Positions 8,924 to 49,344 of a DNA stretch of 64,000 nucleotides are shown in pieces. Every line of letters starts with the position of its first letter. Position 1 is the stretch's first letter. The notes beneath the pieces are model-generated. The model was not told the DNA's origin, did no database searches, and was given only the letters and a program-made list of their open reading frames with translations. The stretch is taken from contig JAQBNO010000148.1 of the NCBI GenBank assembly GCA_028288485.1, forward strand, positions 1 to 64,000, given 5' to 3'. Position numbers and translations under genes: made by a program. The DNA is from Segetibacter sp. GTDB taxonomy: Bacteria; Bacteroidota; Bacteroidia; Chitinophagales; Chitinophagaceae.

Positions 8924-11900
8924 ATGAAGCGACTCCTGTTTGCCATGGGAACCATCCTTATATTGGGTGTTCCGGCTACTGCGTCTCCCCACAAAGAAGA
9001 AAAACCCAAAGAAGAATTTAATGAAAAGAGTATCGTTACCGGTAGGGTAACCAATGCCGCAGGTGAACCCTTAGCAGGAGTAACCATCGTTGCAAAAGGC
9101 ACTACAAAAACAACGGTTTCGGGTGCTGACGGGTCTTTTAGTATCGATGTTCCTGCCAATGTAAAGACCCTTGTATTTTCGTATGTAGGTATGGAAAGCC
9201 AGGAGGTAAGTATCGGCTCGGGGAACATTCAGGTAGCTTTGAAAAGTTCTGAAGCTGCGCTAAACGATGTAGTGGTTGTGGGATATACTACTCAAAGGAG
9301 AGCAAACCTTACAGGTTCTGTCGCAACGGTATCAGGACAAACCTTAACCCAACGGCCTGCACCTAATGCTGCTAATTTATTACAGGGCCGTGTGCCGGGT
9401 TTGCAGGTTACACAGCCATCTGCAGAGCCGGGTCGTGATAATCCTTCTTTCTTAATTCGCGGTCGTGGTACTTTTGGAGGCAGTACTGATCCGCTGGTAC
9501 TAATAGATGGAGTTACAGGCTCTTTAAACAATCTTTCGCCTGACGATATAGAAAATATTACCGTATTAAAAGATGCTGCTTCCGCTTCTATCTACGGCGC
9601 ACGAGCTGCCAACGGTGTTATATTGGTAACTACTAAAAAAGGAAAAAGAGGTCAGACTGCAGTAAGCTATAGGTTGAATGTTGGCAGTCATGCCGCTATA
9701 GGTCTGCCTGATCTGATTACCAATTCAGCCCAGTACATGGAGATGTTTAATTCTGCTGCTGTTAGAAGCGGCCTTAGCCCGACTACTTACTATCCGCAGG
9801 CAGAAATTGATAAATATAAGAATGCTACCGACCGTAACCAGTATCCAAACTTCAATGCAATTGATTATTATTTCAATCCTGCTACAGTTACCAACCATAA
9901 CGTTTCGATATCGGGTGGTGGAGACAAAAGTACTTTCAACCTGTCATTAGGTTACCTTAGCCAGCCTGCTGTGTTGCCTGGTTATAATTTCAAAAGATAC
10001 AATGCTTTGCTCAATTATACCACCCAGTTAAGTAAGGCCATAACGGTAGGAACTTCGATGAACCTGACCTATAAAGACCGGAAGGAACCGCCTGTTGTGA
10101 GTCAGTTTATGGCATTAAGTGTGTACGCAACCGGCCCACTATATGGCCCTTACTTACCCGACGGTAGTGGCAGGGCAGCGTCCAAGGCTTATTTTTTTGA
10201 AGGAAGAAACCGTAACGTTTCCGAATATCCTCTTATGGGCGAACAATATACAAAAGAGTATAACCTGAATGCCCAGGCTTACATTGATATTAAACTGTTT
10301 AAGGGATTAACCTGGTCTTCAAAAGTGGCGGTTAACTACGTGGACGAGTTCTTTAAAATGCACCAGGTGCCTTACCAGGCTTACCTCACGCAGGAAAAAG
10401 ACCCTGCCACAGGCGATTACAGGATGTTTACGTTTGGTCCCGATATATTGGGTGTAACAGACCAGTATTGGAAAACAATTACCCCTACTGTCTACTCTAC
10501 GTTTAATTACAATACAAAAATTGCTGAGGATCATAATTTGAGTGTATTGGCGGGCTATGAACAATTATCGTATAGAAATCAAACTTTAAGAGCCAGGAGA
10601 CAAAATTCCGCCGCTCCGGCCCTTACAGAATTGTCTGGTTATTCCCCCGCTGTAGAATCTGTAAATTTCTTCCCCGGGCATCCGCGTCTACCATCACTTC
10701 CTTCACCGTCTGAATGGGCCATGCAGTCTGTTTTCGGCCGCGTGAATTATAACTATAAAGGGAAGTATTTGCTTGAAGGAAACCTGCGCTATGACGGTAC
10801 TTCAAAAGTATCGCCCGATTATCGCTGGGGTGTTTTCCCGTCTGTATCTGCAGGCTGGTTAGTATCGAACGAAAGTTTCTTCCGCGACAAGTTTAACTGG
10901 ATCAACAATTTTAAGCTTAGAGCTTCTTATGGTAGATTAGGTAACCAGGATATAGGCACGTACCTGTACCAGAGTACACTCGATATAAACAATGTGAATT
11001 ATCCTTTTGGAAACGCAAACCTGCAACAAGGTGCTGTAGTGAATGTTTTCAGAGACCAACGTTTGAAGTGGGAATCTACAAGTATCCTTGACTACGGATT
11101 TGACCTGAACGCCTGGAGAGGTCTACTCGGAATAACTTTCGACTGGTTTAGTAAAACTACTTCAGACATCCTGGCTTCTCAGCCAATACCGCGCAGTTCA
11201 GGATTAAATGATCCTGTTTTCAATACAGGTAAAATGCGGAACAAGGGTATAGAGCTTGAGATTACCCATCAAAACAAAATAGGGAAAGTTAATTATGGCG
11301 TGAATGGCCTGATTTCTACTGCCAGCAATGAAGTATTGGAGATCAGGGTACCAAGTAAGGGGTCTTCTATTCGTGAGGTTGGTTTACCTTTCGATGCGCA
11401 CTACCTGTATGTTTGGGACGGTATTTTCCAGCAAGAAGATATTACCAGCGGCAAAGTGCCAAAACATGCATTGAACCCGAATCCGAAAGCAGGTGACCTT
11501 AAAATGAAGGATGTAGATAGTGATGGGGATGTAGATGCTAACGACCGTGTGGTAACAAAAGGAGCTTATGCTGATTATACCTATTCATTTGGTGCAAACG
11601 TAGGTTATGCTGGTTTTAATTTGAATGCCTTCTTCCAGGGAGTGAAAGGTGTACACAACAGGATAACCGGCTGGGGAGTTGATCCTTTTACACAAGGAAC
11701 TGCACCAACCCAGAAATGGGCTAATTCTTGGACGCCTCAAAACCGCAGCAACGTGCTTCCGGCCATTTATGCAGGTAGTTATGTAGGCGTAACGGGTTAC
11801 CAGGCCTCCACTTTTTATCTCCAGAATGCTTCTTACCTGCGCCTGAAAAATGTTGTGCTTTCTTACAGTTTCCCAAGATCTGTTTTTTCACGTATCAAGG

Positions 11901-12052
11901 CTTCAGACCTGAGTGTATATGTATCAGCAGATAATCTTTTAACCATAACCAATTATGAAGGTGGCGATCCTGAAAGATCAGGCACAGTAAGCGGTCAGCC
12001 TCCATATCCACAGGCCCGGATTTACAACGTGGGTTTAAACGTTAAATTTTAA
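8924..12052 (+). CDS. susC: SusC-family TonB-dependent outer-membrane importer 1
   Basis: This 1042-residue receptor imports large glycan fragments with its lipoprotein partner SusD, powered by TonB. It has a signal peptide (about 1-20), a charged linker, a carboxypeptidase-regulatory-like domain (about 38-110, VTGRVTNAAGEPLAGVTI), a TonB-box-like stretch (NDVVVVGYTTQ) and a plug with the SusC-type block LKDAASASIYGARAANGVI around residue 215. The rest is a 22-strand-type beta barrel ending in an aromatic-rich strand (YNVGLNVKF). The susD start follows within a few bases, so the two form an operon driven by the operator at 8771. Substrate specificity cannot be read from sequence. Confidence 0.97.
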   Translation: MKRLLFAMGTILILGVPATASPHKEEKPKEEFNEKSIVTGRVTNAAGEPLAGVTIVAKGTTKTTVSGADGSFSIDVPANVKTLVFSYVGMESQEVSIGSGNIQVALKSSEAALNDVVVVGYTTQRRANLTGSVATVSGQTLTQRPAPNAANLLQGRVPGLQVTQPSAEPGRDNPSFLIRGRGTFGGSTDPLVLIDGVTGSLNNLSPDDIENITVLKDAASASIYGARAANGVILVTTKKGKRGQTAVSYRLNVGSHAAIGLPDLITNSAQYMEMFNSAAVRSGLSPTTYYPQAEIDKYKNATDRNQYPNFNAIDYYFNPATVTNHNVSISGGGDKSTFNLSLGYLSQPAVLPGYNFKRYNALLNYTTQLSKAITVGTSMNLTYKDRKEPPVVSQFMALSVYATGPLYGPYLPDGSGRAASKAYFFEGRNRNVSEYPLMGEQYTKEYNLNAQAYIDIKLFKGLTWSSKVAVNYVDEFFKMHQVPYQAYLTQEKDPATGDYRMFTFGPDILGVTDQYWKTITPTVYSTFNYNTKIAEDHNLSVLAGYEQLSYRNQTLRARRQNSAAPALTELSGYSPAVESVNFFPGHPRLPSLPSPSEWAMQSVFGRVNYNYKGKYLLEGNLRYDGTSKVSPDYRWGVFPSVSAGWLVSNESFFRDKFNWINNFKLRASYGRLGNQDIGTYLYQSTLDINNVNYPFGNANLQQGAVVNVFRDQRLKWESTSILDYGFDLNAWRGLLGITFDWFSKTTSDILASQPIPRSSGLNDPVFNTGKMRNKGIELEITHQNKIGKVNYGVNGLISTASNEVLEIRVPSKGSSIREVGLPFDAHYLYVWDGIFQQEDITSGKVPKHALNPNPKAGDLKMKDVDSDGDVDANDRVVTKGAYADYTYSFGANVGYAGFNLNAFFQGVKGVHNRITGWGVDPFTQGTAPTQKWANSWTPQNRSNVLPAIYAGSYVGVTGYQASTFYLQNASYLRLKNVVLSYSFPRSVFSRIKASDLSVYVSADNLLTITNYEGGDPERSGTVSGQPPYPQARIYNVGLNVKF

Positions 12053-12062
12053 ATTGAAATCA

Positions 12063-13610
12063 ATGTGTACCAGAAATAGAGTTTATATATGGTTGTCAGC
12101 TTCAGTCATGTTGTTTGGAGCTTCGTGTACAAAAGACTTTTTACACAAAAATCCGTTAGATGCTGTTTCCAGCGCAACCTTCTGGACCTCGGAAACAGAT
12201 GTGCAGACAGCTTTAGCCGGCGTTTATGCCCGTTTGCAGGCAGACTTCCTCGGTTACCAAAGAGTATATTTAGATTGCCTTTCTGATAATGCTTATGCTG
12301 ATCCCGGAAATGCCTTTCTGCCTAATTTGCCTTTATTAACAACAGGTGGTATATCCTCTGGTCTTGGCGGTCCTTTAACCAGTATGTATAACACACCGTA
12401 CCGCGTTATTGCCTCTTGTAATTACTTTCTGGATAATGTAGACAAAGCGCCAATAAGTGATGCTAAAAAGAATTTGTATAAGGGAGAACTAAGGTTCGTC
12501 AGGGCTTTGTCCTATTTTGACCTGGTTCAGGCTTTTGGCGGAGTAATTATTTATAAAAACTTCCCTACCACATCAGAAGCTACCAAAATAGCAAAAAGCT
12601 CGAGAGAAGAAGTATACGCTTTCATCGCGGAAGATTTGAATTTTGCAATCGCTAATCTTCCCGACGATAAGTACAACGGTCATGCTGTAAGGGGTAGTGC
12701 GCAGGGTATAAAAGCAAGGGTGCTTCTTACGCAACAAAAATGGGCCGAAGCAGTACCGCTTTTACAGGCAATAATGACTTCAGGTAAACACGGACTATCT
12801 ACTGATTATGCCGCCATGTTCAAAACCTCGGGCCAGGCAAATGCAGCTATCAATAAAGAGATCTTGTTTTCAACCCAATACCTTGCTCCCAATAATATTC
12901 ATCGTACAGGCCAGGCAGGTTTGGATATAGAACTGGGATGGTTTTCTTTAATTCAGCCCTACAAAGAACTTGCTGATGATTATGAAATGAAAGACGGTAA
13001 ACGCCCCGCAGAGTCGCCCTTGTATAATGCTGCTACTCCTTATGCTAATCGTGATCCCCGCCTCGACCTTACGCTTAAAGTTCCGGGCGAAGTCTGGAAA
13101 AACCCTTCAACAGGAGCAGACTGGACAGGTAGTTATTCTACAAGTACCGGTTTTATCCAGGAAAAGTATGTAGATCTTTCAAGAGCTCCGTTTAGTGCTA
13201 ATAGCTCTATTCAGACTGACCAGGATTACATTCACTTACGTTATGCAGATGTGCTGCTAATGTATGCCGAAGCTAAAAATGAAATAAGTGGACCCGACGC
13301 TACAGTATATGATGCAATTAACCAGGTTCGTGCAAGAGCAACCGTAAATATGCCGGCTGTTGATCAAAGCAGGTACAATACAAAAGAAAGTCTCCGCGAC
13401 TATATCCGTCACGAAAGAAGGGTAGAGTTTGCTTTGGAGGGACAAAGGTACAATGACCTGAAGCGTTGGAATATTGCTCATATTAAATTACCTACGCTAA
13501 AAACACCTTCCGGAACTCCGTTTGTGTTTGAAACGAAAAATTATATTTTGCCTTTCACACAACAGGAACTGGATAACAACCCGGCGTTGTTACAGAATTC
13601 GGGTTATTAA
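12063..13610 (+). CDS. susD: SusD-family glycan-binding lipoprotein 1
   Basis: This 515-residue surface lipoprotein forms the lid of the SusC importer. The lipobox is LFGASC, with the modified Cys near residue 22 followed by TKDFL, the usual SusD start. The N-terminal SusD-like domain carries the typical TPR-like helices (LYKGELRFVRALSYFDLVQ) and the C-terminal RagB/SusD domain has HLRYADVLLMYAEAKNE and VRARA blocks and the closing ERRVEFALEGQRYNDLKRW. I chose the ATG at 12063; an in-frame TTG at 12054 is possible but adds only three residues. It starts 10 bp after susC-1 and ends just before a strong hairpin. Confidence 0.96.
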   Translation: MCTRNRVYIWLSASVMLFGASCTKDFLHKNPLDAVSSATFWTSETDVQTALAGVYARLQADFLGYQRVYLDCLSDNAYADPGNAFLPNLPLLTTGGISSGLGGPLTSMYNTPYRVIASCNYFLDNVDKAPISDAKKNLYKGELRFVRALSYFDLVQAFGGVIIYKNFPTTSEATKIAKSSREEVYAFIAEDLNFAIANLPDDKYNGHAVRGSAQGIKARVLLTQQKWAEAVPLLQAIMTSGKHGLSTDYAAMFKTSGQANAAINKEILFSTQYLAPNNIHRTGQAGLDIELGWFSLIQPYKELADDYEMKDGKRPAESPLYNAATPYANRDPRLDLTLKVPGEVWKNPSTGADWTGSYSTSTGFIQEKYVDLSRAPFSANSSIQTDQDYIHLRYADVLLMYAEAKNEISGPDATVYDAINQVRARATVNMPAVDQSRYNTKESLRDYIRHERRVEFALEGQRYNDLKRWNIAHIKLPTLKTPSGTPFVFETKNYILPFTQQELDNNPALLQNSGY

Positions 13611-14034: not shown

Positions 14035-17370
<3,336 letters not shown>

Positions 17371-17556: not shown

Positions 17557-18714
17557 ATGACAGTTGAAAGAATCATTTTAAAAGGTATTACCTGGAACCA
17601 TAGCAGGGGATTTGTTCCTATGGTGGCCACCGCCCAAAGGTTTTCTGAATTAAATCCCGGCGTTGAGATAATCTGGGAGAAAAGATCGCTGCAGCAGTTT
17701 GCAGATTTTTCTATAGAACAATTGGCTGAACGATATGATCTATTGGTGATCGATCACCCCTGGGCGGGGTTTGCTGCAAGAACGAGAACTATTTTGCCAT
17801 TAGATGAATTTTTGCCTGCCGATTTTATCGAAGATCAACGTGTTAATACCGTTGGACACTCGTTTGAAAGTTATTCTTATACCGGTCATCAATGGGCACT
17901 CGCAATTGATGCTGCTACACCTGTGGCTTCAAGCCGTCCTGACCTTTTGCAAAAACTTAATACCAAACTTCCCGAAAATTTTGATGATCTGTTATCGCTT
18001 GCTTCAAAAGGTTTGGTAGCTTTTGCAGGCATTCCTATTGATGTTTTAATGAGCTTTTATATGTTCTGTTGCTCTTTAGGAGAAGACCCACTTCAAAAAG
18101 AAGACCTTGTGGTAAGTGAAGCGACAGGAGTGGAGGCATTAAAAATGTTCAGGTCACTGGCACAAAAAATGAATCCTGCTTTTTTCAATTATAATCCTAT
18201 TAAGGTTTATGAAGCGATGACCTTAACAGATGAAATAGCTTATTGCCCCTTTGCTTATGGCTATTCCAATTATTCAAGAAGGGGTTATGCAAGAACATTA
18301 CTTCATTTTCATGACCTGCTTAAAATAGATGGTACAAACAAAGCCAAGAGCACGTTGGGTGGTACAGGTTTAGCTGTTTCAGCTAAGTGTGAACATATTG
18401 ATGAAGTAATGAAGTATGTAGAATATGTTGCATCGGGTGATTGCCAGGAAACCGTGTTCTTTAGCAACGGCGGACAACCGGGACATTTAAAAGCGTGGCA
18501 GGATGATTATGTAAACAGTCAAAGTGAAAATTATTTTGCTGCTACATTGCCTGCTTTGCAACGAGCTTTTCTACGTCCGCGGTATCACGGAAGCATGTAC
18601 TTCCAGGATCATGCGGGTGAGCCGGTAAGAGATTATTTAATAAGAGGAGGTAGCGAGAAAAAATTGCTTAACCAATTGAATGAGCTATACATTACATCAA
18701 GAACAATAGAATAG
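17557..18714 (+). CDS. Solute-binding-protein-fold protein without signal peptide (SBP-1)
   Basis: This 385-residue protein resembles family-1 ABC extracellular sugar-binding proteins: an early RFSELNPGVEIIWEKRSL block (the usual beta-strand 2 of such proteins), DLLVIDHPWAGFAA, and a late ALPALQRAFLRPRYHGSMYF. It has no signal peptide or lipobox; the first residues are MTVERIILKGITWNHSRG. An in-frame TAG lies seven codons upstream of the ATG (17536-17538), so a missed leader is ruled out. No ABC permease or ATPase gene occurs anywhere in the window. Its stop is followed after one base by the first CoA-transferase start, so translation is probably coupled. The inferred role is an intracellular ligand-binding or enzyme-partner protein; the true function is unknown. 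Confidence 0.8.
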   Translation: MTVERIILKGITWNHSRGFVPMVATAQRFSELNPGVEIIWEKRSLQQFADFSIEQLAERYDLLVIDHPWAGFAARTRTILPLDEFLPADFIEDQRVNTVGHSFESYSYTGHQWALAIDAATPVASSRPDLLQKLNTKLPENFDDLLSLASKGLVAFAGIPIDVLMSFYMFCCSLGEDPLQKEDLVVSEATGVEALKMFRSLAQKMNPAFFNYNPIKVYEAMTLTDEIAYCPFAYGYSNYSRRGYARTLLHFHDLLKIDGTNKAKSTLGGTGLAVSAKCEHIDEVMKYVEYVASGDCQETVFFSNGGQPGHLKAWQDDYVNSQSENYFAATLPALQRAFLRPRYHGSMYFQDHAGEPVRDYLIRGGSEKKLLNQLNELYITSRTIE

Positions 18715-18715
18715 T

Positions 18716-19867
18716 ATGAAAAAACCTTTAGAAGGCCTGTTGGTATTGGAGTTCAGCCAGTTTTTGGCGGGGCCTTCCGCAGGTTTAAGACTGGCAGATC
18801 TGGGTGCAAGGGTTATAAAAATTGAACGCCCTGTAAAAGGTGAAGGCGGACGACAAATAGCTATTAAGAATATTTTTATAGATGGCGACAGCCTCGTTTT
18901 TCATACGATTAATCGGAATAAAGAATCGTATGCCGCCGATTTAAAAAATGCGGATGACCTGGAGAAGGTAAAGAAGCTGATTGCAAAGGCTGATGTGATG
19001 ACACATAATTTCAGGCCGGGGGTTATGGAAAAGATCGGGCTGGATTATGCGTCGGTAAAAACAATAAACTCGAAGATTGTGTACGGTATTGTTTCAGGTT
19101 ATGGAAATAAAGGTCCCTGGGCAAATAAACCGGGCCAGGATTTACTGGTTCAATCTTTATCTGGCTTAACCCATTTATCGGGAACAAGAAATGACGGACC
19201 GGTACCTTTTGGTTTAGCGGTTGCAGATATATTGTGTGGTTCGCATTTTACGCAGGGTATTCTTGCCGGGCTTATTAAGCGTGGCAAGACACATGAAAGT
19301 GTATTGGTAGAAGTAAGCCTGCTTGAATCGACGCTTGACATGCAATTTGAAGTTCTTACTACTTACCTCAACGATGGAGGAAAGTTGCCATATCGCGGGA
19401 ATACCAGGGGAACTGCTCATGCATACTTAAGTGCACCGTATGGAATATATAAAACAAAAGATAGTTACCTGGCAATTGCGATGGGTAATCTTATTCCGTT
19501 AATGACAGCGCTTGGATGTACTATTGAAGAAGCGTATGAAGACGCAGCTACATGGTTTGATAAGAGAGATGAGATTGTAGAAACAATTGCGTCGGTTTTA
19601 ATAAATACAACAACGGATGAATGCCTGTTAATACTTGAACCATTAGGCATTTGGTGTGCACCGGTATTAGATTATCAGGAACTGATGCAGCAGGAAGGGT
19701 ATAAGGTTTTGGGTATGCAACAAAATGTGAAATTGCCAAACGGCGACGACTTAGCCACTACCCGTTGTCCTATTGTTATTAATGGAAGAAAATTATATTC
19801 AACCAAACCTGCACCAAAAGTTGGATCACATACTGATGAGATAAATAAGGAGTTTTACATTTTGTAA
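18716..19867 (+). CDS. CaiB/BaiF family III CoA-transferase 1
   Basis: Family III enzymes move CoA between carboxylic acids using an aspartyl acyl-CoA anhydride. The 383-residue protein starts with the family's Rossmann half ([27 protein letters not shown] in part, KIERP) and has [16 protein letters not shown] and [14 protein letters not shown]. The catalytic Asp is probably D171 in [10 protein letters not shown], the position matching Asp169 of formyl-CoA transferase. It is cytoplasmic with no signal. It overlaps the operon between two solute-binding-like proteins and is followed 17 bp later by a close paralogue; the pair may form a heterodimer or act on two acids. The acyl substrate cannot be inferred. 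Confidence 0.92.
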
Positions 19868-19884
19868 AAATTAGAGTTCGTATA

Positions 19885-21051
19885 ATGAATGCATTAGAAG
19901 ATATTTTAGTAGTTGATTTCAGCCAGTTTTTATCTGGTCCTTCAGCAAGTTTACGAATGGCTGATTTAGGAGCTCGTGTCATTAAAATTGAACGTCCGGG
20001 AACGGGTGATATTTGCCGCCATTTGTATACTTCAAACGTTATAATGAATGGTGAGTCTTCTGTATTTCATGCCATCAACCGGAATAAGGAAAGTTTTGTA
20101 GCGGACCTTAAAAATGAAGAGGATAAAAAAGCGGTTCAGGAATTATTGAAAAAAGCCGACGTGGTGATGCACAACTATCGCCCGGGAGTTATGGAGCGGT
20201 TAGGGTTTGATTACTATAAAGTGAAGGAAATTAATGATACGGTTGTTTATGGTGAAATCTCGGGATATGGTACGGAAGGTCCCTGGAAAGATAAACCAGG
20301 ACAGGATCTGCTCGTGCAATCTCTTGCAGGATTAACCTGGTTAACAGGAAATGCAGAAGACGGCCCGGTACCAATGGGACTATCAATTGTTGATATGCTT
20401 GCAGGTGCTCAGCTGGCGCAGGGAATTTTAGCCTGCCTGGTTCGCCGCGGTATAAGCGGGGAAGGTGGTCTTGTACAGGTTAGCATGCTCGAGTCTGTAA
20501 TGGATCTTCAGTTTGAAGTGCTTACTACATTTTATAATGACGGTGGCGCTTTGCCCAAGCGAACAGAAACAAATAATGCACACGCTTATTTGGGTGCCCC
20601 CTATGGTATTTACCAGACTAAAAATGGTTTCATTGCTTTAGCTATGGGATCTATTCCTGTGCTTGGAAAGCTTTTAAATTGCCCTGATTTGTTAGTCTAC
20701 CAGGACGTGGCTCTTGCTTTTACCAAACGCGACGAAATAAAGGAAATTCTTGCAAAACATTTTTTAACCGGAACAACGGAACAATGGCTGTCTGTTTTGG
20801 AACCTGCCGACATTTGGTGTGCAGACGTTTTATCGTGGGATAGACTGATGCAACACGAAGGGTTTAAAGTGCTCGATATGGTGCAGGAAGTACAAATGAC
20901 AGATGGTTATAGCTATAAAACAACACGATGCCCGATAAGGATAGACGGTGAAATTTTAAGCTCACCAAAAGCTTCTCCGAAGTTGGGACAGGATAATGAA
21001 TTGATAACCGAAGAATTTTTAAGAGCACCGGAATTGAGAAAAGCCATATGA
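19885..21051 (+). CDS. CaiB/BaiF family III CoA-transferase 2
   Basis: A paralogue of the preceding gene (388 residues). Shared blocks include [20 protein letters not shown] in the N-terminal half, [36 protein letters not shown], and a final [21 protein letters not shown] region. The probable catalytic residue is D170 in [10 protein letters not shown]. Both copies keep their catalytic Asp, so neither looks like a dead subunit. Its last four bases overlap the start of the next gene (ATGA), a sign of translational coupling. The shared FSQFL.GPSA start and spacing suggest a local tandem duplication. Confidence 0.92.
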
Positions 21052-22280
21052 GTGATAACAATACATTTCGCATAGCCGTACGAAAGTTTGGACCATTTGA
21101 AACTGCTTTAGAAAAGACCTGGGCTGACTTCTGTAAACAGTCAAACTGTTCGCTACAGGTAGAAATGGTTCCAATGGAACTTCATCCTTTATATGATTCT
21201 ATCCTGGAAAAAGGTGGGCTGGCAAAGGGTGACTGGGATGTAGCTCACATAAATACCGACTGGTTATACGAGGGTTATACCTCAGGTGCTATTCAAAATC
21301 TGAAGCCTTATATAGAAGCAAATCCTCCCGAAGATTTTCCGGTAGGATGGAGCCAGTCACTTTCATCGATGCAGAAATCCGGAGACGATGTTTACGGACT
21401 TCCCTTCCATGACGGACCTGAATGCCTTATCTATCGAAAAGACCTTTTCGAGGATGAAAGCGAGCAGAAAAGGTATTTTGAAATGTATGGTAGGCCATTG
21501 CAGCTACCCGAAACATGGGACGATTTTCAGCAGGTAGCAAGGTTCTTCCAAAGATCATCAGAGAATTTATGCGGTACCGTCTTCGCAGGTTATCCCGACG
21601 GTCATAATACGGTTTTTGATTTTTGCCTACAGTTATGGACAAGAAATGGTGAACTGGTAAATGAAGATGGAGTTATCAATATTAATACAGATGCAGCTCT
21701 GGAAGGCTTAACCTATTACAGGAATATTTTGCGTGATACCAATGCTATTCATCCGCAATCGAAAGAATTTGACTCGGTGCAGTCGGGGATGGCTTTTGCA
21801 CGTGGTGAAGTTGCCATGATGGTCAACTGGTTTGGTTTTGCTTCTATGTGCGAAGTAATAGATGAGTCGACAGTAAAGGGTAAAGTAGACATCACTAACG
21901 TGCCTAAAGGAAATGGAGGAAAGTCTGCTTCTTTAAATGTTTACTGGTTATACGCAATAGGTGCGGGAAGTAAAAACAAACAGGTTGCATATGATTTTAT
22001 CAGGTATGCGGTAAACAGGAATAACGATAAATTACTTACACTGGAAGGTGGCATAGGATGCCGCCTTTCTACCTGGCACGATGAGGAAGTGAATAAAATG
22101 GTTCCCTATTACCATAAACTCGAAATGTTACATAACAACGCCAAATCTCTGCCGTTAAAAAGCAACTGGGCCAAAATTGCATCAGTAATAGATGAAGTTG
22201 TTTTACAAACGGTTAACACTGATCTTCCAATAAAAGAACTTCTAACAAACGGTCAGCAGAAAATAGAATTACTGGGTTAA
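21048..22280 (+). CDS. Solute-binding-protein-fold protein without signal peptide (SBP-2)
   Basis: This 410-residue protein matches family-1 sugar-binding proteins better than SBP-1: [39 protein letters not shown] (in pieces), [14 protein letters not shown], and [18 protein letters not shown] are the usual landmarks. Again there is no signal peptide ([18 protein letters not shown]), and the start is fixed by a 4-bp overlap with the preceding CoA-transferase. In ABC systems this fold binds a sugar or oligosaccharide outside the membrane; here it would remain in the cytoplasm. With SBP-1 it encloses the two CoA-transferases. A role as ligand carrier, sensor or enzyme subunit is inference only. 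Confidence 0.82.
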
Positions 22281-22290
22281 AACTAACAGA

Positions 22291-23367
22291 ATGGAAATAC
22301 CTTATAAACCTATATTACCCGAAAACCCGCTGCCTATTGTCATCATTGGTGCTGGCGGCATCGTAACCGATGCGCACCTGCCTGCATATAAAAAAGCGGG
22401 ATTTAGTGTAGTCGGCATTACTAACAGGACAAAGGGGCGGGCAGAAAAGGTGGCAGCAGAATGGAACATTCCAAACGTATACGATTCGGTTGCAGATGCC
22501 GTAGCCAATGCGCCGGAAAATGCAGTATATGATATTACCATAATGCCCAACCAGTTCGTCGAAACATTAAATCAATTGCCCGATGGAAGTGGCGTACTCA
22601 TCCAAAAACCGATGGGTGATTACTTCTGGCAAAGCAAAGAAATCCTCGAGGTTTGCAGGAGAAAAAACCTCGTTGCAGCTATTAATTGCCAATTACGTTT
22701 TGCTCCTTATGTCAGCGCCGCACGATACCTCGTCGAGCAGGGACTGATAGGCGAATTGTACGATATGGAAGTGCGGGTAACGATAAAAACTCCATGGGAA
22801 ATATTCCCCCATGTTATTATTCACCCCCGTCTCGAAATTCAATACCACAGCATTCATTATATTGATTTGATCAGGTCTTTCCTTGGTGATCCGAAAAGTG
22901 TAATGGCTAAAACTTTAAAACATCCTGCAAAGACTTTGTCATCTTCACGTTCAACTATTTTGTTCGATTACGGCGATACCATGCATGCCGTTATCAATAC
23001 CAACCACGATCATGATTTTGGTCCAACTAACCAGGAGAGTTATATAAAATGGGAAGGAACAAAAGGTGCGATTAAAGCAAAGATGGGCTTGCTGATGGAT
23101 TACCCGCATGGCGTTCCTGATCAATTCGAATATTGCATCCGTGAAGAAGGAAAAGAACCCGTATGGATAACAGTGCCGCTGGAAGGCTCCTGGTTTCCCG
23201 ATGCATTTATAGGAACAATGTCGGCTGTAATGCGGTATAAAGAAGGTTCGTCCAAAGTGTTGCCAACAAGTGTTGAAGATGTTATAAAAACAATGGCTGT
23301 TGTAGAAAGCGCATATATCTCAAGCGATACAGGTGGGGTTGTAGTGGCGGAAAGGTTTAAGGTGTAA
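22291..23367 (+). CDS. Cytoplasmic Gfo/Idh/MocA-family oxidoreductase
   Basis: NAD(P)-dependent sugar or sugar-acid dehydrogenase family. The Rossmann motif is VIIGAGGIVTDAHLPAY near residue 17. The usual Glu-Lys-Pro is QKP here (LIQKPMGDYFW, near residue 105): the Lys and Pro are kept, the Glu is Gln. The C-terminal domain has the IHYIDLIRSFLGDPKSV block. No signal peptide, unlike the second family member at 54688. It starts 10 bp after SBP-2, so it is the fifth gene of the operon beginning at 17557. It might make or consume the acid handled by the CoA-transferases, which is inference. Confidence 0.9.
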   Translation: MEIPYKPILPENPLPIVIIGAGGIVTDAHLPAYKKAGFSVVGITNRTKGRAEKVAAEWNIPNVYDSVADAVANAPENAVYDITIMPNQFVETLNQLPDGSGVLIQKPMGDYFWQSKEILEVCRRKNLVAAINCQLRFAPYVSAARYLVEQGLIGELYDMEVRVTIKTPWEIFPHVIIHPRLEIQYHSIHYIDLIRSFLGDPKSVMAKTLKHPAKTLSSSRSTILFDYGDTMHAVINTNHDHDFGPTNQESYIKWEGTKGAIKAKMGLLMDYPHGVPDQFEYCIREEGKEPVWITVPLEGSWFPDAFIGTMSAVMRYKEGSSKVLPTSVEDVIKTMAVVESAYISSDTGGVVVAERFKV

Positions 23368-23549
23368 GGCAGGTTACAAGATACAGGTTTCAAGATACAA
23401 GTTTCAAGACAGAGGAAAGAGGCAGAAGGCATGGTAAGGCAAAAGGTGTAGCGATTAAGGTTTAAGGAGTAAGGCGTCAAGTGTTTATCTCTCTTCTCCC
23501 TTTAGGGTTAGGGCTTTTTTTGGTAGCCAGCAGTTTTACTACTATATAA

Positions 23550-23573
23550 CATCGTTGTGTCACTCACTTGTAC
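23550..23573 (-). repeat. Dispersed 24-bp repeat, GTGAGTGACA subtype
   Basis: Full-length minus-strand copy; the plus strand reads CATCGTTGTG then TCACTCACTTGTAC. Confidence 0.8.
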
Positions 23574-23765
23574 TTGTAATAGCTTATTCGACTTTTACTT
23601 TAAGTGGTATAAGATGTTTAAAATTTTAATATTGATAGGTGTTGAAGAAAGGTTGCTGGTCATGCCACCAGCAACGGCAGAGGCGCCTCAGTTGGTCGCA
23701 TGACCAACTGATTGAGAAGCGGCCTCGAGGATTAAAAGCATTGAAAGCTCTTGTTAGACCGAACT

Positions 23766-23920
23766 AATATTCGCTTCTGACACCAGTTATTGCATAAGGG
23801 ACATCAGCCGGTTGGGTGCCCAGCGAAGCGTAGGCATTCAGAAAGCAGCGAAGCGGTTTCTCAAACAAGCGGGTGGAGTCCGGTTGCAATAACGAAGCCA
23901 CGCGGCTTGAGCTTTTGATG
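23766..23920 (+). repeat. Structured 150-nt intergenic repeat, copy 2
   Basis: Begins AATATTCGCTTCTGACA and ends GGCTTGAGCTTTTGATG. It closely matches 62517-62673 (shared GTTATTGCATAAGGGACATC, GCCGGTTGGGTGCC, AAACAAGCGG). Possible stems are GGTGCC with GGCATT, AGAAA with TTTCT and AAGCC with GGCTT. It ends 55 bp before the MaoC-type gene. Confidence 0.7.
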
Positions 23921-23974
23921 TGAGGTTGATAAGGCTTTTACAAACAAAACGTCTGATCAAAATAAATAACAGTC

Positions 23975-24424
23975 ATGTATTTCAAATCCATTTTTTACGA
24001 AGATTACACTTTAGAAAATAAAAGAATAACATTAGGCAGAACTATTACTGAGACAGATTTCGTTGTGCATGCGGGTCATACCGGCGATTTCTTCCCTCAT
24101 CACATGGATGCCGAATGGTGCAAAACGCAACCTTTTAAACAAAGGATTGCCCACGGAACAATGATTTTTAGTATTGGCATTGGTCTTACGGCATCTGAAA
24201 TTAACCCCGAAGCTTTCTCAAAAGGTTATGATCGTTTACGATTTGTAAAGCCTGTTTTTATTGGCGATACCATTCATTCTGAAATAACCATTTCTGAAAA
24301 AGCAGAATCAAAAAAGCCTGAATACGGAACGGTTACAGAGCATGTTGAGATAATAAACCAACACGGAGAAGTTGTGGTTGTTTGCGACCATTTGTTGCTG
24401 GTAAAAAAGAGGACCAACGGGTAA
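23975..24424 (+). CDS. MaoC-type hotdog hydratase
   Basis: This 149-residue hotdog-fold protein resembles (R)-specific enoyl-CoA hydratases and mesaconyl/itaconyl-type hydratases. The catalytic motif is GDFFPHH with D38 and H43 matching the Asp and His of the GDXNPLH signature; the usual Asn is Phe here. [12 protein letters not shown] follows as expected. It adds or removes water on CoA thioesters in the cytoplasm, which matches two CoA-transferases just upstream on the same strand. A 607-bp gap with repeats separates it from them, so co-transcription is uncertain but a shared pathway is likely. Confidence 0.85.
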
Positions 24425-24636: not shown

Positions 24637-25947
24637 ATGGCCCAACTGCCTGTAGAATCTGTCGCTCAACCAACCGGTGTTAAAACTGAATATGGTAAGG
24701 GCGAAAAAAATAAATACCTCCTGCCTTTTATTTTAGTAACAAGCCTGTTCTTTCTATGGGGCATGGCACATAACCTTGATTCTATTTTAATCCCGCATCT
24801 TAAGAAGGCGTGCGAATTGGATAATCGTCAATCAACACTTGTAGATACCTCTATATTTTTTGCCTATTTCATTATGGCTATGCCGGCCGGAATGTTTTTA
24901 AAAAAGTGGGGATATAAGAGCGGTATTATAACAGGACTGCTTGTTTTTGCTTTAGGGGCATTTTTATTTGTGCCTGCCGCTAATGCCAGGAGCTACGAAC
25001 TTTTTCTGCTTGCATTATTTATCATTGGTTGCGGACTTGCTATACTGGAAACCGCTGCCAATCCTTACGCGGCTATCTTAGGCCCTCCTGAAAGCGCAGG
25101 TACACGCTTAAATCTTGCCGCTTCTTTCAATGGGCTTGCAGCAACCATTGCACCTTTGATTGGTACAGTTTTTATTTTATCGGGCGTTGAGTTTACCGGT
25201 GAACAACTTGCAGCTATGCCTGATGCAGAACGTTTAACCTACCTAAATCACGAAGCTTCCGCTGTTAAATTGCCTTATATACTATTGGGCGTTGTGCTGG
25301 TTTTAGTGGCTGTCTTGTTTTACTTTTTCAAGTTTCCGGAGGTGAGAGATGATAGTAAATCGGTAAAGGGCAGCAGCTTTTTTAACGCCTTTAAATATAA
25401 ACACCTTACCTGGGCTGTTGTTGCCCAATTTTCTTATGTAGGCGCGCAGGTTTGTGTTACCAGCTTTTTTATCCGGATGGCCAAACAGGGCGGTGGTATT
25501 GATGAAAAGACTGCAGGATATTATTTAGGTGTTTATGGTTTCTTGTTTATGGTAGGACGTTTTGCCGGGACATTTTTTCTTCGGTTTGTATCTGCGCATA
25601 AGCTGCTTTCTATCTATGCCTGTATTTCTGTTTTACTCTGTCTTATAGCTATTTTATCAGAAGGTGGTTATGTGATTTATTCATTAGGAGCTTTGGGTTT
25701 CTTTATGTCTATCATGTTCCCTACCATTTTTTCTTTGGGAATTGCTGGTCTTGGAAACGATACTAAAACAGGTTCCTCGTTATTGGTGATGTCAATTGTA
25801 GGAGGTGCTATTTTCCCCTACCTTATGGGAACGGTGATCGACCTGAATAAAGATAACGTGCAAACAGGATATATCGTGCCACTGGTGTGTTTTGCAGTCA
25901 TTGTTTATTTTGGTCTTACTGCTTACAAAGTGAAGCCCCGGCCCTAA
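24637..25947 (+). CDS. FucP-type MFS sugar:H+ symporter
   Basis: This 436-residue inner-membrane permease belongs to the FHS/FucP branch of the major facilitator superfamily. Diagnostic blocks are FFLWGMAHNLDSILIPHLKK near residue 40, ANPYAAILGPP and RLNLAASFNGLAA. Twelve hydrophobic helices are visible. Family members import L-fucose, glucose, galactose or N-acetylglucosamine, and close homologues in glycan loci carry the released monosaccharide, so rhamnose, fucose or galactose are the natural candidates here. It starts 212 bp after the MaoC-type gene and is followed 84 bp later by the GH106 gene on the same strand. Confidence 0.93.
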   Translation: MAQLPVESVAQPTGVKTEYGKGEKNKYLLPFILVTSLFFLWGMAHNLDSILIPHLKKACELDNRQSTLVDTSIFFAYFIMAMPAGMFLKKWGYKSGIITGLLVFALGAFLFVPAANARSYELFLLALFIIGCGLAILETAANPYAAILGPPESAGTRLNLAASFNGLAATIAPLIGTVFILSGVEFTGEQLAAMPDAERLTYLNHEASAVKLPYILLGVVLVLVAVLFYFFKFPEVRDDSKSVKGSSFFNAFKYKHLTWAVVAQFSYVGAQVCVTSFFIRMAKQGGGIDEKTAGYYLGVYGFLFMVGRFAGTFFLRFVSAHKLLSIYACISVLLCLIAILSEGGYVIYSLGALGFFMSIMFPTIFSLGIAGLGNDTKTGSSLLVMSIVGGAIFPYLMGTVIDLNKDNVQTGYIVPLVCFAVIVYFGLTAYKVKPRP

Positions 25948-26031: not shown

Positions 26032-29000
26032 ATGAATACAAACTGGAATAGGAGAAAGTTTATTAAGAATACAGGAACAGGAACTTTGATAGCGCTTGCA
26101 ACCGGCCTTCCGTCTTTTGGTTTTGCATCTGCATCTACCGCGAGCATGGAAGATGGTAGTGCCGCACCAGCTAACGATTTGCTTAAAAATTTTCAAAACC
26201 CTCCCGAATCTGCTCTTCCCTGGGTTTTTTGGTATTGGATGTCGGCCAGTGTATCACGGGAAGGAATTACTGCTGATGTAGAGGCAATGAAACAAGCAGG
26301 AATTGGCGGAGCGTATCTTATGCCTATCAGCGGTAAGACAAATCCCCCGCTTCTGGATCCCCCGGTTGAGCAGCTTACTCCTGAATGGTGGGGAATGATA
26401 AAACACGCGTGTGCAGAAGCAGGACGTGTCGGAATTAAGATTGCGATGAATGCCTGCGACGGATGGGCCACAGCCGGCGGTCCCTGGATCACTCCTGAAC
26501 TTTCCATGCAAAAGGTGGTATGGACAGAGACTTACATTCAAGGTGGTAAGAACTTCAACGGATCTTTGCCTCAACCCGAAACGAATGCCAATTATTACAA
26601 GGATCTTGCTATACTGGCTTTTCCAACTCCCGAAGGAGCTGATCTTTCTACACGTACTATTGTTCCGAAAGTTACAACAAGCAAACCGGGAGAAGATGCT
26701 CAATTTTTAGTAGCCCAAAACAATGCAAAAGATTTTGTAAGCGAAGATCCGTGTTGGATACAGTATGCCTTTGACCAACCTTTTACCTGCCGTTCTATTA
26801 CTGTATATTCTGAGAAAGGAAAATATAATGCGCAAAACTACCAGTCGAAACGACTGCTCATAGAAGTAAGCGACGACGGAACCACTTTCCGTTCACTTGG
26901 CCGTCTGGAATCTCCCCGACATGGTTGGGAAGACTGGGATGCTCCTGTAACGCATTCTATCATTCCGGCAACAGCCAAATATTTCCGCTTTATTTATGAT
27001 ACGGCGGGGTCAGAACCGGGGGCAGAAGACCTTGATTCTGCAAAGTGGAAACCAAAACTGCAAATGAGGGGACTGGAGCTTTCCGGTGCGCCACGTTTGC
27101 AACATTTTGAAGGTAAGAACGGTTCTGCCTGGCGTATTGGGTCGCGAACCAGGTCGCAACAGGTGCCGGGAAATTTATGTGTACCGAAGGATAACATTGT
27201 AGACCTTACCAGTAAGCTGGATACTAACGGCAATTTATCGTGGAACACTCCGGGGGGCAATTGGACGATTCTACGTATTGGCCATACTTCTACCGCCTTT
27301 AAGAATAATGGTGGAAAAGGTAGTGGTTTAGAATGTGATAAGTTTAATAAGGAAGCCATCAAGTTACAGTTTGATAAATGGTTTGGTGAAGCAATGCGAC
27401 AGGTAGGCCCCGATCTCGCTCCATCAGTGCTAAAAGTTTTTCATGTTGATAGCTGGGAGTGCGGCAGCCAGAATTGGTCACCGGTGTTTCGCGAAGAATT
27501 TAAGAAACGGCGGGGTTACGACCTGTTTCCTTATTTGCCTGTTATGGCAGGTATACCGGTACAGGACATCGATTTTTCTGAACGTTTTTTACAGGATGTA
27601 CGCCAGACAATTTCAGACCTGGTAGTCCATAATTTCTATAAGACCTTGAATGAACTGGTTCGTGCAAAGGGATGTATTTTCAGTTCAGAATGTGTTGCTC
27701 CTACCATGATGGGCGACGGTTTAGCGCATTTTGACCTGGTTGATATTCCTATGGGTGAATTTTGGTTGCGTAGCCCTACAAATGATAAGCTGAATGATAT
27801 GCTCGACGCCGTGTCGGGGGCTCATATTTATGGTAAACACATCATTCAAAGTGAGGCATTCACCGAGGTGAAAATGTCATGGGACGAACATCCTGCTATG
27901 CTGAAAGCACTTGGTGATCGAAATTTCGCTATTGGCGTCAACAAGTTTGTTTATCACGTATTTGCTCACAATCCATGGCTTGATCGTAAACCAGGTATGA
28001 ACCTGAGTGGTATTGGTCTCGGCTTTCAGCGCGACCAGGTTTGGTGGAAACCGGGAAGGGAATGGGTGGCTTATGCACAACGATGCCAGTCGTTGCTGCA
28101 GCAGGGCCGGCCGGTGGTAGATATAGCGGTATTTATTGGTGAAGAAACACCTCGAAGGGCAGTGTTGCCTGAAAGGCTTGTTTCAACTTTACCGGGAATA
28201 TTTGGTGCCGAGATATTGGCCCGTGAAGAAAAACGCCTGGCCAATATAGGTGAACCAATGCGCGAATTGCCCGACAAAGTTTTTAATTCTGCCAACACAT
28301 CTGATCCTGAACTTTGGATAGATCCTTTGCATGGTTATGCGTACGATTCTGTAAATCCCGATGCATTATTACGTCTTGCTAAAGTTCGGGATGGTCGTAT
28401 TGAATTTCCAGGTGGAATAAGTTACGGTTTACTTGTATTGCCGGGTGCAAATAAAATGATGCCTGAAGGAAATGTGATGTCTCCGGGAGTTGCCATTAAA
28501 CTACGTGAGTTGGTAGAGGCAGGAGCAACGATCCTTTTAACTGAACGGCCTGAGAAAGCTCCCGGATTGCCCAAGGGCTCTTCAGCCGAAGCAACTGTGA
28601 AACAAGTAGGGGAGTTGCTTTGGGGAGGACAAACAACTGGCTCAAAAAATAATACAGTTGGAAAAGGAAGGGTTCTTAAAGGTGCTTACCATGGTGATTC
28701 TTTTGACAATATCGGTCTTCAAAGAGACTTGGTAGCTCGCGATACTTCCGGTAAACGGGCTGAAGAAATCGCATGGATCCATCGAACCGCTCCTGGCTTT
28801 GATATCTATTTTATCTCAAACCAACAAGATAAGTTACGCACTCTTCAAGTATCGCTACGTGTAAACGGGCGGGTTCCTGAGTTCTGGGATGCTGTAACGG
28901 GTAATATTTATACAGCACAGGATTGGCGAATTGAAAACGGCCGTACCCTTCTGCCAATTCGTTTGGAACGTAATGGTTCTGTATTCGTTGTTCTTCAACG

Positions 29001-29541
29001 GTCGACTAAAGAAACTAAAAGCAGCCGGGGTAAAAATTGGACGGAGGCTAAGACGATTCAAACACTTCAGAAGCCGTGGCAGGTAACTTTTGATCCGTCT
29101 TTTGGTGGACCAGAAAAACCTGTTACTTTTCATCAATTGACTGACTGGAGTAAAAACGCTGATCCGGGTATTCAATATTATTCCGGAACTGCTGCTTATG
29201 TTACCACTTTTGATTGGCAAAAACCGGCAGGAAAAGCTTCGAAAGTATGGCTGAATGTAGGGAAGGTGGCTAATATTGCCGAAATAATAGTGAACGGAAT
29301 TAACTGCGGGGTAGCATGGACAGCACCCTTTGCAGTTGACATAACAAAGGCTTTACGTGTTGGTAAAAATGAAGTTGTTATTGAAGCAAGTAATACCTGG
29401 GCAAACCGGATGATCGGTGATCGAAAGTTGCCCGCAGATAAAAGGATCACCCGGACAAACGCGCCTTTTGTATTGGAAGGTAAACCGCTGCTGGAAGCAG
29501 GTTTGTTAGGGCCGGTAACCATACAGGTTACGGATAGATAA
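26032..29541 (+). CDS. Tat-exported GH106 alpha-L-rhamnosidase
   Basis: This 1169-residue enzyme starts with a twin-arginine signal (NRRKFIKNTGTGTLIAL). The mature N-terminus shows the GH106 landmarks PWVFWYWMSASVSREGITAD and GIGGAYLMPI, followed by the barrel (FHVDSWECGSQNW, SECVAPTMMGDG) and a C-terminal GH2-like beta-sandwich (KVWLNVGKVANIAEIIVNG and EVVIEASNTWANRM). GH106 enzymes remove alpha-L-rhamnose by inversion with calcium, notably from pectic rhamnogalacturonans. It lies 84 bp after the symporter, consistent with co-transcription. Together with GH78 at 36549 it makes rhamnose the most likely released sugar of this half of the locus. Confidence 0.92.
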   Translation: MNTNWNRRKFIKNTGTGTLIALATGLPSFGFASASTASMEDGSAAPANDLLKNFQNPPESALPWVFWYWMSASVSREGITADVEAMKQAGIGGAYLMPISGKTNPPLLDPPVEQLTPEWWGMIKHACAEAGRVGIKIAMNACDGWATAGGPWITPELSMQKVVWTETYIQGGKNFNGSLPQPETNANYYKDLAILAFPTPEGADLSTRTIVPKVTTSKPGEDAQFLVAQNNAKDFVSEDPCWIQYAFDQPFTCRSITVYSEKGKYNAQNYQSKRLLIEVSDDGTTFRSLGRLESPRHGWEDWDAPVTHSIIPATAKYFRFIYDTAGSEPGAEDLDSAKWKPKLQMRGLELSGAPRLQHFEGKNGSAWRIGSRTRSQQVPGNLCVPKDNIVDLTSKLDTNGNLSWNTPGGNWTILRIGHTSTAFKNNGGKGSGLECDKFNKEAIKLQFDKWFGEAMRQVGPDLAPSVLKVFHVDSWECGSQNWSPVFREEFKKRRGYDLFPYLPVMAGIPVQDIDFSERFLQDVRQTISDLVVHNFYKTLNELVRAKGCIFSSECVAPTMMGDGLAHFDLVDIPMGEFWLRSPTNDKLNDMLDAVSGAHIYGKHIIQSEAFTEVKMSWDEHPAMLKALGDRNFAIGVNKFVYHVFAHNPWLDRKPGMNLSGIGLGFQRDQVWWKPGREWVAYAQRCQSLLQQGRPVVDIAVFIGEETPRRAVLPERLVSTLPGIFGAEILAREEKRLANIGEPMRELPDKVFNSANTSDPELWIDPLHGYAYDSVNPDALLRLAKVRDGRIEFPGGISYGLLVLPGANKMMPEGNVMSPGVAIKLRELVEAGATILLTERPEKAPGLPKGSSAEATVKQVGELLWGGQTTGSKNNTVGKGRVLKGAYHGDSFDNIGLQRDLVARDTSGKRAEEIAWIHRTAPGFDIYFISNQQDKLRTLQVSLRVNGRVPEFWDAVTGNIYTAQDWRIENGRTLLPIRLERNGSVFVVLQRSTKETKSSRGKNWTEAKTIQTLQKPWQVTFDPSFGGPEKPVTFHQLTDWSKNADPGIQYYSGTAAYVTTFDWQKPAGKASKVWLNVGKVANIAEIIVNGINCGVAWTAPFAVDITKALRVGKNEVVIEASNTWANRMIGDRKLPADKRITRTNAPFVLEGKPLLEAGLLGPVTIQVTDR

Positions 29542-39653: not shown

Positions 39654-39770
39654 CTATGAAAAACAAAGGTTGGTAACAAAATAAAAGTTGGTTCTCTAAT
39701 TCTCATTCCCGGGTTAACATTTTATTTCATAACAATAATTGCTGAATAAATGGTATTTCAATTTCTGACT

Positions 39771-48277: not shown

Positions 48278-48580
48278 TATATAATAAGCCCTTTATATTT
48301 AATTTGTTATGAGCAAGAAACCTACCTGCAAGATAAAAGCATTTCCCCTTCACCTTTTAATTTATATTTTCATTTACCTGGTTATACTTTCTTTCACGTA
48401 ACTGAAGGTGGGTATAGTTAAGCTTGTTATACTGGTAGCGGTTTTCTTACTTCCCGACGTTTTTCGTATACTCTTCTTCATGGCAAACATTGTATTTATT
48501 TCGTGTGACAGCCTTCTATGCCTGCGTTTCAAATTTTCGCTATTTTATCTTTTGGCCGCGGCTTAAAATTTTCATGGCGT

Positions 48581-48604
48581 CTTCGTTGTGTCACTCACTT
48601 GTGC
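48581..48604 (-). repeat. Dispersed 24-bp repeat, GTGAGTGACA subtype
   Basis: Plus strand reads CTTCGTTGTG then TCACTCACTTGTGC. Confidence 0.7.
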
Positions 48605-48726
48605 TTACACAATTTTGTTGAACCTTTACTAAATGAACGTTATTTAAAAATGAACCGGCCGCAAGTGGGCGATCCTCCCTTTTTTTAAAATGGTATCAAA
48701 GGTGATGCATTCAAAAGTTCTATAAA

Positions 48727-49104: not shown

Positions 49105-49344
49105 AAAGTAGAGCACTTTCCATTCTTTTCAACCGTTAATTTACCTGTAATACTTTTAAATAATGTAGCTGCTACCCGAATAGAAATTGTTTACTGAGAA
49201 ATTGTTGAAGCGTACAAAAGCAGCCGGCAATTATATAAACCTCAAAAATTATACAAGCTCGTAAATCTCGTATACATTGAACTCGTTCGCCTTTATTTGG
49301 TATAATAGAATGACCGGTTTTCATAATTCGTGGTAAAGTGGAAA

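Follow-up and report, generated by a model that had tools for sequence, protein, structure and literature searches.

The analysed window, a 64,000-nucleotide stretch of Segetibacter sp. (NCBI GenBank assembly GCA_028288485.1, contig JAQBNO010000148.1, positions 1 to 64,000), carries at positions 17557–24424 an operon whose six core genes encode two proteins of predicted solute-binding protein (SBP) fold, here called SBP1 and SBP2, two family III coenzyme A (CoA)-transferases, CaiB1 and CaiB2, a Gfo/Idh/MocA oxidoreductase (Gfo) and a MaoC hydratase/dehydratase. We propose, with a probability of roughly 0.4, that this conserved operon serves the catabolism of a 6-deoxy-L-hexose or of some derivative of such a sugar, the acid of which would pass a CoA-thioester step before the non-phosphorylative route. 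What the analysis shows directly is the gene set and its conservation, the predicted folds, the intact catalytic residues and a cross-phylum tie to L-fucose-type pathway genes. The core genes and the transporter gene that follows them are:

17557–18714, + strand: SBP1, predicted MalE-type solute-binding fold without signal peptide, the usual neighbour of CaiB (385 aa; Pfam SBP_bac_1, 34.5 bits)
18716–19867, + strand: CaiB1, family III CoA-transferase (Pfam CoA_transf_3, 302.5 bits)
19885–21051, + strand: CaiB2, family III CoA-transferase (Pfam CoA_transf_3, 318.2 bits)
21048–22280, + strand: SBP2, second predicted MalE-type fold without signal peptide (Pfam SBP_bac_1, 86.1 bits)
22291–23367, + strand: Gfo/Idh/MocA oxidoreductase (Pfam GFO_IDH_MocA, 40.7 bits)
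23975–24424, + strand: MaoC hydratase/dehydratase (Pfam MaoC_dehydratas, 76.9 bits)
24637–25947, + strand: FucP-family major facilitator superfamily sugar:H+ symporter (TIGR00885 fucP, 383.9 bits, cut-off 280.4)

The gene order and spacings given by the sequence-only reading, an earlier annotation of this DNA from its letters and translations, proved exact when the coordinates were checked: the first five genes follow one another at distances of 1, 17, −4 and 10 bp, and MaoC comes next, 607 bp beyond Gfo. All six family assignments stood as well, each scoring above the curated Pfam cut-off (23.3 bits for CoA_transf_3). The unit had been taken to end at MaoC; it continues on the same strand with the FucP-family transporter gene and a rhamnosidase gene of glycoside hydrolase (GH) family 106. 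The two CaiB genes are the sole PF02515 matches in the 6.4-Mb host genome. As for the space between Gfo and MaoC, three tandem 14-nt repeats and one 14-nt inverted repeat lie at 23370–23706, and the gap is shorter in those relatives in which both genes were called. Scans of the window with Rfam at gathering cut-offs and for tRNAs gave no matches, and promoter-like sites (13 vs. 18.2 expected) were uninformative.

A homology search with SBP1 was positive in 15 of 99 genomes (host included); the surrounding stretches show SBP1-CaiB-CaiB as one block, in most cases close to Gfo and MaoC. More widely, 81 loci were compared, namely the window and the best 80 of at least 517 matches, found in Hymenobacter, Pedobacter, Mucilaginibacter, Flavobacterium, Lutibacter and others. 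The query alignment was led by the window SBP1, and the sample is hence biased to loci of the SBP2/FucP type; gene calls were the longest open reading frames (ORFs), and the gene-cluster names rest on one scanned member each. SBP1 was present in 81 loci, SBP2 in 78, Gfo in 77, FucP in 72, MaoC in 71, separate CaiB pairs in 74 and CaiB-CaiB fusions in seven. The full core (SBP1, CaiB, SBP2, Gfo and MaoC) occurred in 71 of the 81, each of which also has FucP or RhaT. With 71 loci holding all five families, the grouping is not due to chance, and the outcome named in the sequence-only reading as its refutation, that the genes would not be found together elsewhere, did not occur. That reading had further noted that the SBP folds have no transport partner, which is misleading, as 78 of the 81 loci also encode a sugar:H+ symporter (FucP or RhaT). 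Because at least 517 stretches encode an SBP1 relative and CaiB is present at every one of the best 80, this undescribed set, joining CoA chemistry with plant-glycan sugars, seems common.

SBP1 and CaiB are closely packed in most loci: the two genes overlap in 56 (51 of them by 4 bp), and the distance between them is at most 25 bp in 66 and exceeds 100 bp in 11. Among the ten loci short of the core, five (L041, L043, L045, L046 and L080) show an antisense or otherwise unusual ORF call where the absent gene would lie, and two stop at a contig end (L050 and L076); the other three are considered below.

Two types of the operon were distinguished. The window type combines SBP2 with FucP. The second type, in which a fuconolactonase-family, lactonase-like amidohydrolase takes the place of SBP2, accounts for 12 of the 14 other operon-bearing relatives, and RhaT is present in six of these 12; the one member scanned scored 159.9 bits to the fuconolactonase family, for which the cut-off is 400. 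One relative (G027) has SBP2 with RhaT, and another (G054) is divergent. In two hybrid loci (L022 and L024), Gfo, MaoC, FucP, GH106, GH2 and SusC/SusD of the window type (54–89% identical) flank an SBP1-CaiB-CaiB-lactonase block of the second type; the block appears to move as a cassette. The idea that SBP2 replaces the lactonase was dropped, as Flavobacterium has SBP2 plus a lactonase of another clade (the three lactonase clades are 27–32% identical to one another), and only a positional swap is claimed. A divergent operon (L034, 3777–12246) carries SBP1 and CaiB homologues with RraA-like, UxuA-like and KDG-kinase-like genes and, by eye, a crotonase, an Xaa-Pro peptidase, a short-chain dehydrogenase/reductase (SDR) and a cupin.

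The set lies among genes for glycan breakdown. In the window these are:

8924–13610, + strand: SusC/SusD pair upstream, associated and not core (SusD, 12054–13610: Pfam SusD_RagB, 162 bits; SusC named by position and length)
14062–17370, + strand: GH2 enzyme directly upstream, associated and not core (Pfam Glyco_hydro_2_C, 267.6 bits)
26032–29541, + strand: GH106 alpha-L-rhamnosidase, associated, 84 bp past FucP (Pfam Glyco_hydro_106, 587.3 bits)

The expectation that the conserved unit would often lie near rhamnosidase or pectin-type genes was borne out, in raw counts that have no background rate: GH106, GH78 or GH78-like genes were near the operon in 40 of the 81 loci, GH141-type genes in 16 and GH28 in 15. 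The GH106 cluster of the window recurred in 37 loci and its GH2 cluster in 22. One further gene, L100:965–3466, with its cluster in 15 other loci, encodes a GH141 domain, a beta-helix and a C-terminal rhaM mutarotase domain (one member scanned), apparently a glycosidase–mutarotase fusion.

The association of SBP1 with CaiB extends beyond Bacteroidota. In a search across phyla, 57 of 392 genomes matched SBP1 at E 0.001, 19 of them strongly (E below 1e-160); the remaining matches are partial and were taken for ordinary SBPs. SBP1 homologues were also found on 145 plasmid records, mostly of Sinorhizobium, with others from Azospirillum, Roseibium, Shinella and Streptomyces, and none in phage records. 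Seventeen non-Bacteroidota loci (several from one genus) and two Bacteroidota loci were examined among the plasmid records. CaiB adjoins SBP1 in 15 of the 17, mostly in reversed order and several times with a 4-bp overlap; in Streptomyces, CaiB is 2.7 kb from SBP1. An IclR regulator, an ATP-binding cassette (ABC) transporter, an enolase-family enzyme and Gfo are also present in ten of the 17, this part being about 10 kb from SBP1 in S. meliloti. Five loci were read further. All five have MaoC and an SDR, four have an L-fuconate dehydratase (Shinella HZN7, Roseibium, Ensifer PDNC004 and S. meliloti 1021), and four have an FAH hydrolase (Roseibium, Ensifer and the two S. meliloti strains; gene table incomplete for ml21). 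In Microvirga ossetica, the SBP1 homologue on a plasmid (L153/L219) is flanked by a gene annotated as mannonate dehydratase and an SMP-30 lactonase gene.

Compared with the window, these alphaproteobacterial IclR-ABC-MLE-rhaM-Gfo-MaoC-SDR-FAH-FucD clusters with CaiB-SBP1 (e.g., that of S. meliloti pSymB) share homologous CaiB, SBP1, Gfo and MaoC, with identities to Ensifer of 53–56% for CaiB, 66% for MaoC, 45% for Gfo and 38% for SBP1. They differ in having an ABC importer instead of FucP/RhaT, one CaiB, no SBP2, and an extra MLE and L-fuconate dehydratase; the likeness of the window SBP2 to the SBP of the Ensifer ABC transporter is weak (25.5%). The pSymB ABC genes have reportedly been connected with L-fucose, a link given no weight as evidence here. 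One published report (PMC3454389) attributes an L-fucose binding protein of S. meliloti to SMc02774 and not to the pSymB cluster described here.

The enzymes of the core appear to be catalytically intact. Asp171 of CaiB1 and Asp170 of CaiB2 are each invariant in 74 of 74 unfused copies (the seven fused proteins excluded), and we take them to be the catalytic aspartates, from the position of that residue in formyl-CoA transferase. Lys106, His189 and Asp192 of Gfo are invariant in 77 of 77 proteins, and Asp38 and His43 of MaoC in 71 of 71; the former are presumably catalytic, and the latter presumably the Asp-His pair of the (R)-hydratase motif. A double-length CaiB-CaiB fusion stands in place of the pair in seven of the 81 loci, and also in L030.

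SBP1 and SBP2 are both confidently predicted to be MalE-type bilobal folds. AlphaFold2 models, built from alignments of 30 sequences each, reached a mean predicted local distance difference test (pLDDT) score of 90.6 for SBP1 and 92.6 for SBP2, with Foldseek template-modelling (TM) scores of about 0.8 against sugar SBPs and 0.86 to 1eu8, respectively; the two families are only distant kin (hhalign probability 89.6). The claim that these folds are cytoplasmic agrees with the lack of a signal peptide. In a Kyte-Doolittle scan, a hydrophobicity measure taken as the highest 12-residue mean in the first 40 residues rather than by a dedicated signal-peptide predictor, neither protein showed an N-terminal hydrophobic segment (0.81 for SBP1 and 0.27 for SBP2), and no lipobox was seen on reading the sequence. 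By the same measure, the window SusD scored 1.93, the window GH2 enzyme 3.16 and an alphaproteobacterial ABC-transporter SBP 2.32. Four Flavobacterium SBP1 calls (L088, L089, L096 and L099) start upstream of the conserved start and scored 1.83–2.57; they are read as over-long gene calls because the conserved start lies within them.

A link to sugar-acid chemistry, as the sequence-only reading supposed, is provided by the lactonase, SDR, FAH hydrolase and L-fuconate dehydratase genes in related clusters. Genes of lactonase, zinc-dependent alcohol dehydrogenase and FAH type stand together, divergent, beside the operon in 19 of the 81 loci, all from Flavobacterium or Flavobacteriaceae; they are not in the window. 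They are accompanied by an SDR, the one member scanned scoring 353.8 bits, above the L-fucose dehydrogenase cut-off of 300, and the one operon-side FAH protein scanned scored 376.9 bits to 2,4-didehydro-3-deoxy-L-rhamnonate hydrolase, for which the cut-off is 500. Full-length FAH occurred in 13 of 15 relatives with the operon vs. 24 of 84 without it (Fisher p 3e-5) and, within the family, in 13 of 15 vs. 23 of 45 (p 0.017), both tests ignoring relatedness. Of 13 genomes of Flavobacterium searched, ten have a single full-length FAH, which sits beside the operon (positions checked); these ten have one UxaA-type gene each, 51–53% identical to the query. None of the 13 has a full-length L-fuconate dehydratase, 12 being without a match better than E 6.5e-7 and one having a 29% partial match.

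Among the closest known systems is the non-phosphorylative L-fucose/L-rhamnose pathway (dehydrogenase, lactonase, aldonate dehydratase, SDR and FAH hydrolase), whose genes adjoin the operon in Flavobacterium and share a cluster with its homologues in alphaproteobacteria. Of these enzymes the window operon encodes at most the sugar dehydrogenase, a possible role of Gfo, and it adds the CoA-transferases, MaoC and two SBP folds. The operon can be viewed as a variant of non-phosphorylative deoxysugar catabolism; demonstration of the CoA step would set it apart as a kind of its own. The earlier proposal of a CoA-dependent route for a sugar acid from a glycan stands in part: the conserved unit, the SBPs without signal peptide and the sugar-acid link hold, and its view of transport does not.

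For the substrate, the order of steps, dehydration at the CoA thioester, the cytoplasmic location of the SBPs and the contact of SBP1 with CaiB, we infer the following scheme. Glycosidases would free the sugar and FucP (RhaT in relatives) would import it; Gfo, together with the SDR in relatives, would oxidise it, and the lactonase would open the lactone to a sugar acid. SBP1 would serve as a cytoplasmic binding subunit presenting this acid to CaiB. The two CaiB proteins, probably a heterodimer because they are fused in some species, would load CoA onto the acid and release it from the product, MaoC would add or remove water at the CoA thioester, and the product would enter the non-phosphorylative route, in which a 2-keto-3-deoxy acid would be converted by a dehydrogenase and the FAH hydrolase to pyruvate and lactate. 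Taken in full detail, with a sugar acid turned into a CoA thioester by a heterodimeric CaiB with an SBP-fold capture subunit, dehydration and rehydration by MaoC, possibly with an O-methyl group lost as methanol, and then the 2-keto-3-deoxy route, the scheme is a doubtful one.

Several observations weigh against the proposed catabolic role for a 6-deoxy-L-hexose. In three loci (L079, L081 and L107) core genes are missing although neither a contig end nor a hidden ORF is apparent, and these loci look truly different; and the Microvirga SBP1 homologue has no CaiB among the listed genes of 49 kb (the gene table is incomplete). The alphaproteobacterial clusters hold an L-fuconate dehydratase in addition to CaiB and SBP1, so that the latter are not a simple substitute for it. 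Fifty-six operon-bearing genomes (41 from the best-80 loci and 15 relatives) were searched for competing routes. UxaA-type dehydratases, which could perform the dehydration, are encoded in 55 of them; a full-length L-fuconate dehydratase (at least 39% identity) is found in five and not in the host, where four ORFs of 380–404 codons match the enolase superfamily weakly. When 20 operon-bearing and 20 operon-lacking FAH stretches were compared (of 50 and 24 genomes with full-length FAH), complete or partial clusters with FucP-, rhaM-, UxaA-, SDR-, lactonase- and FucDH-type genes occurred with and without the operon, and UxaA lay beside FAH in five of the 20 stretches of each group; L-fucose therefore already has a likely route. 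In the host itself, FucP-SDR-FAH-FucDH-type genes stand at the end of a contig other than that of the window. The idea that the L-fucose route depends on the operon for its sole dehydratase is weakened by the UxaA results and by the alphaproteobacterial L-fuconate dehydratase. Replacement of rhamnose isomerase was rejected as well: RhaA occurs in two of the 56 genomes, and also in only two of the 99 relatives (one a weak partial match), so that its absence is uninformative, 97 of these relatives being without it. L-fucose isomerase above cut-off was found in seven of the 56 (no background rate).

Plain L-rhamnose is unlikely as the sole substrate, because 53 of the 56 operon-bearing genomes, host included, hold RhaEW, the fused rhamnulose-1-phosphate aldolase/dehydrogenase of the standard route, above cut-off. 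Plain rhamnose and plain fucose likely have other routes in these genomes, and what the operon handles may be a third sugar related to them; a methylated or acylated glycan unit is possible. A sharper version of our proposal makes the substrate an O-methylated (e.g., 2-O-methyl) 6-deoxy-L-hexose, for which activation with CoA would enable MaoC to carry out an elimination and then rehydrate the enol ether, giving methanol and an ordinary 2-keto-3-deoxy acid. The plain-route enzymes of most operon-bearing genomes (RhaEW as above, full-length FAH in 50 of 56) fit this version, a third sugar would explain the separate transporter and oxidation set, and two Flavobacterium genomes (G510 and G513) hold a UxaA-FAH pair plus an operon-side FAH. 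An O-methyl 6-deoxy sugar would be the most specific substrate fitting coexistence with the ordinary rhamnose and fucose routes. However, the chemistry is our own suggestion and no gene indicates methyl groups, though no search was aimed at methyl-group enzymes, and the version is regarded as unlikely.

About equally improbable is that CaiB and MaoC process a common short acid from sugar breakdown (lactate, formate/oxalate, mesaconate or itaconate) in the manner of Ict/Ich, in which case the sugar-acid idea would be wrong. The top NCBIfam matches are indeed succinate-glutarate, oxalate and mesaconate CoA-transferases and PaaZ/Ich hydratases, but they fall far under the cut-offs. No equivalog cut-off for a CaiB of known substrate was reached (best 217.5 of 750 and 184.1 of 522 bits), nor was that of the PaaZ or Ich hydratases by MaoC (79.9 of 562.8 and 58.7 of 340 bits), which counts against our proposal too. 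The unit is also without a CoA-ester lyase (the genome was not searched for one), and it is surrounded by genes for sugar transporters, rhamnosidases, lactonases and FAH. Itaconate and mesaconate are metabolised by Ict/Ich/Ccl and Mct/Mch; these routes likewise combine CaiB with MaoC, while the operon has two CaiB and two SBP genes. In carnitine metabolism, the family III CoA-transferase CaiB is paired with the hydratase CaiD, and CoA cycles between substrate and product. The operon resembles that system in its pairing of CoA-transferase with hydratase, and differs in having MaoC instead of a crotonase, sugar genes around it, and scores of 62 and 79 of 413 bits to the carnitine CoA-transferase model.

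Binding-protein folds that have turned into enzymes include MqnA and cyclohexadienyl dehydratase, and SBP1 could itself be an enzyme, a lyase or dehydratase, instead of a binding subunit. Many polar residues are invariant across 15 diverse members (e.g., W13, H15, R17, R43, D66, D118, R127, R241, H310, R340 and R342), and the Microvirga homologue stands without CaiB among dehydratase-type genes. Yet CaiB is the usual partner and the MalE-type branch is not known to us to include an enzyme, and an enzymatic SBP1 seems unlikely, to much the same degree as the two preceding alternatives.

Far less probable is that the operon feeds a D-apiose-like pathway through a RuBisCO-like OiaX and OiaK. Apiose is a pectin sugar too, and genes for a RuBisCO-like protein, an OiaK-like (SBD_N/NBD_C) kinase and an Asp/Glu racemase-like protein directly follow FucP in L048, L049, L062, L068 and L075. 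With only these five of 81 loci, and none of the genes beside the window operon, this pathway was set aside; the one OiaX-like and one OiaK-like protein scanned were below the equivalog cut-offs (508.7 of 700 and 441.5 of 700 bits). Least credible is export of the SBPs to work with an ABC importer encoded elsewhere, for although their fold and family match ABC sugar-binding proteins, they have no signal segment, the three BPD_transp_1 permeases of the host all lie off the contig of the window, and SBP1 is translationally coupled to the CoA-transferase in two phyla.

No published description of this gene set, nor a paper on the function of the alphaproteobacterial CaiB-SBP1 cluster, was found by a literature search with most subscription journals outside its coverage. 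To our knowledge, an ABC-type binding fold as a CoA-transferase subunit would be its first such use; if this reading holds, such a subunit would be spread over Bacteroidota, Alphaproteobacteria and Actinomycetota. Confirmation would fill a gap in deoxysugar catabolism and give a function to folds now annotated as 'extracellular solute-binding protein'. A direct genetic test is feasible in cultured Pedobacter, Flavobacterium and Sinorhizobium.

Other genes of the window were noted in passing. A DUF5703 protein (389–2698, 405 bits) has counterparts near the operon in L020 and Rufibacter. Two tandem genes (39750–40883 and 40953–42050) encode similar proteins, the first with GH43/GH130 matches under the Pfam cut-offs, and their cluster lies near the operon in 31 of the 81 loci. 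The product of 42154–43584, with rhamnosidase genes close by, has a C-terminal domain with a weak arabinose isomerase match (32.2 bits) and a sub-cut-off fucose isomerase match (28.6 bits). On the minus strand at 47651–52674, as read from the translations, a response-regulator-like gene lies about 1 kb off a long sensor-kinase-like gene.

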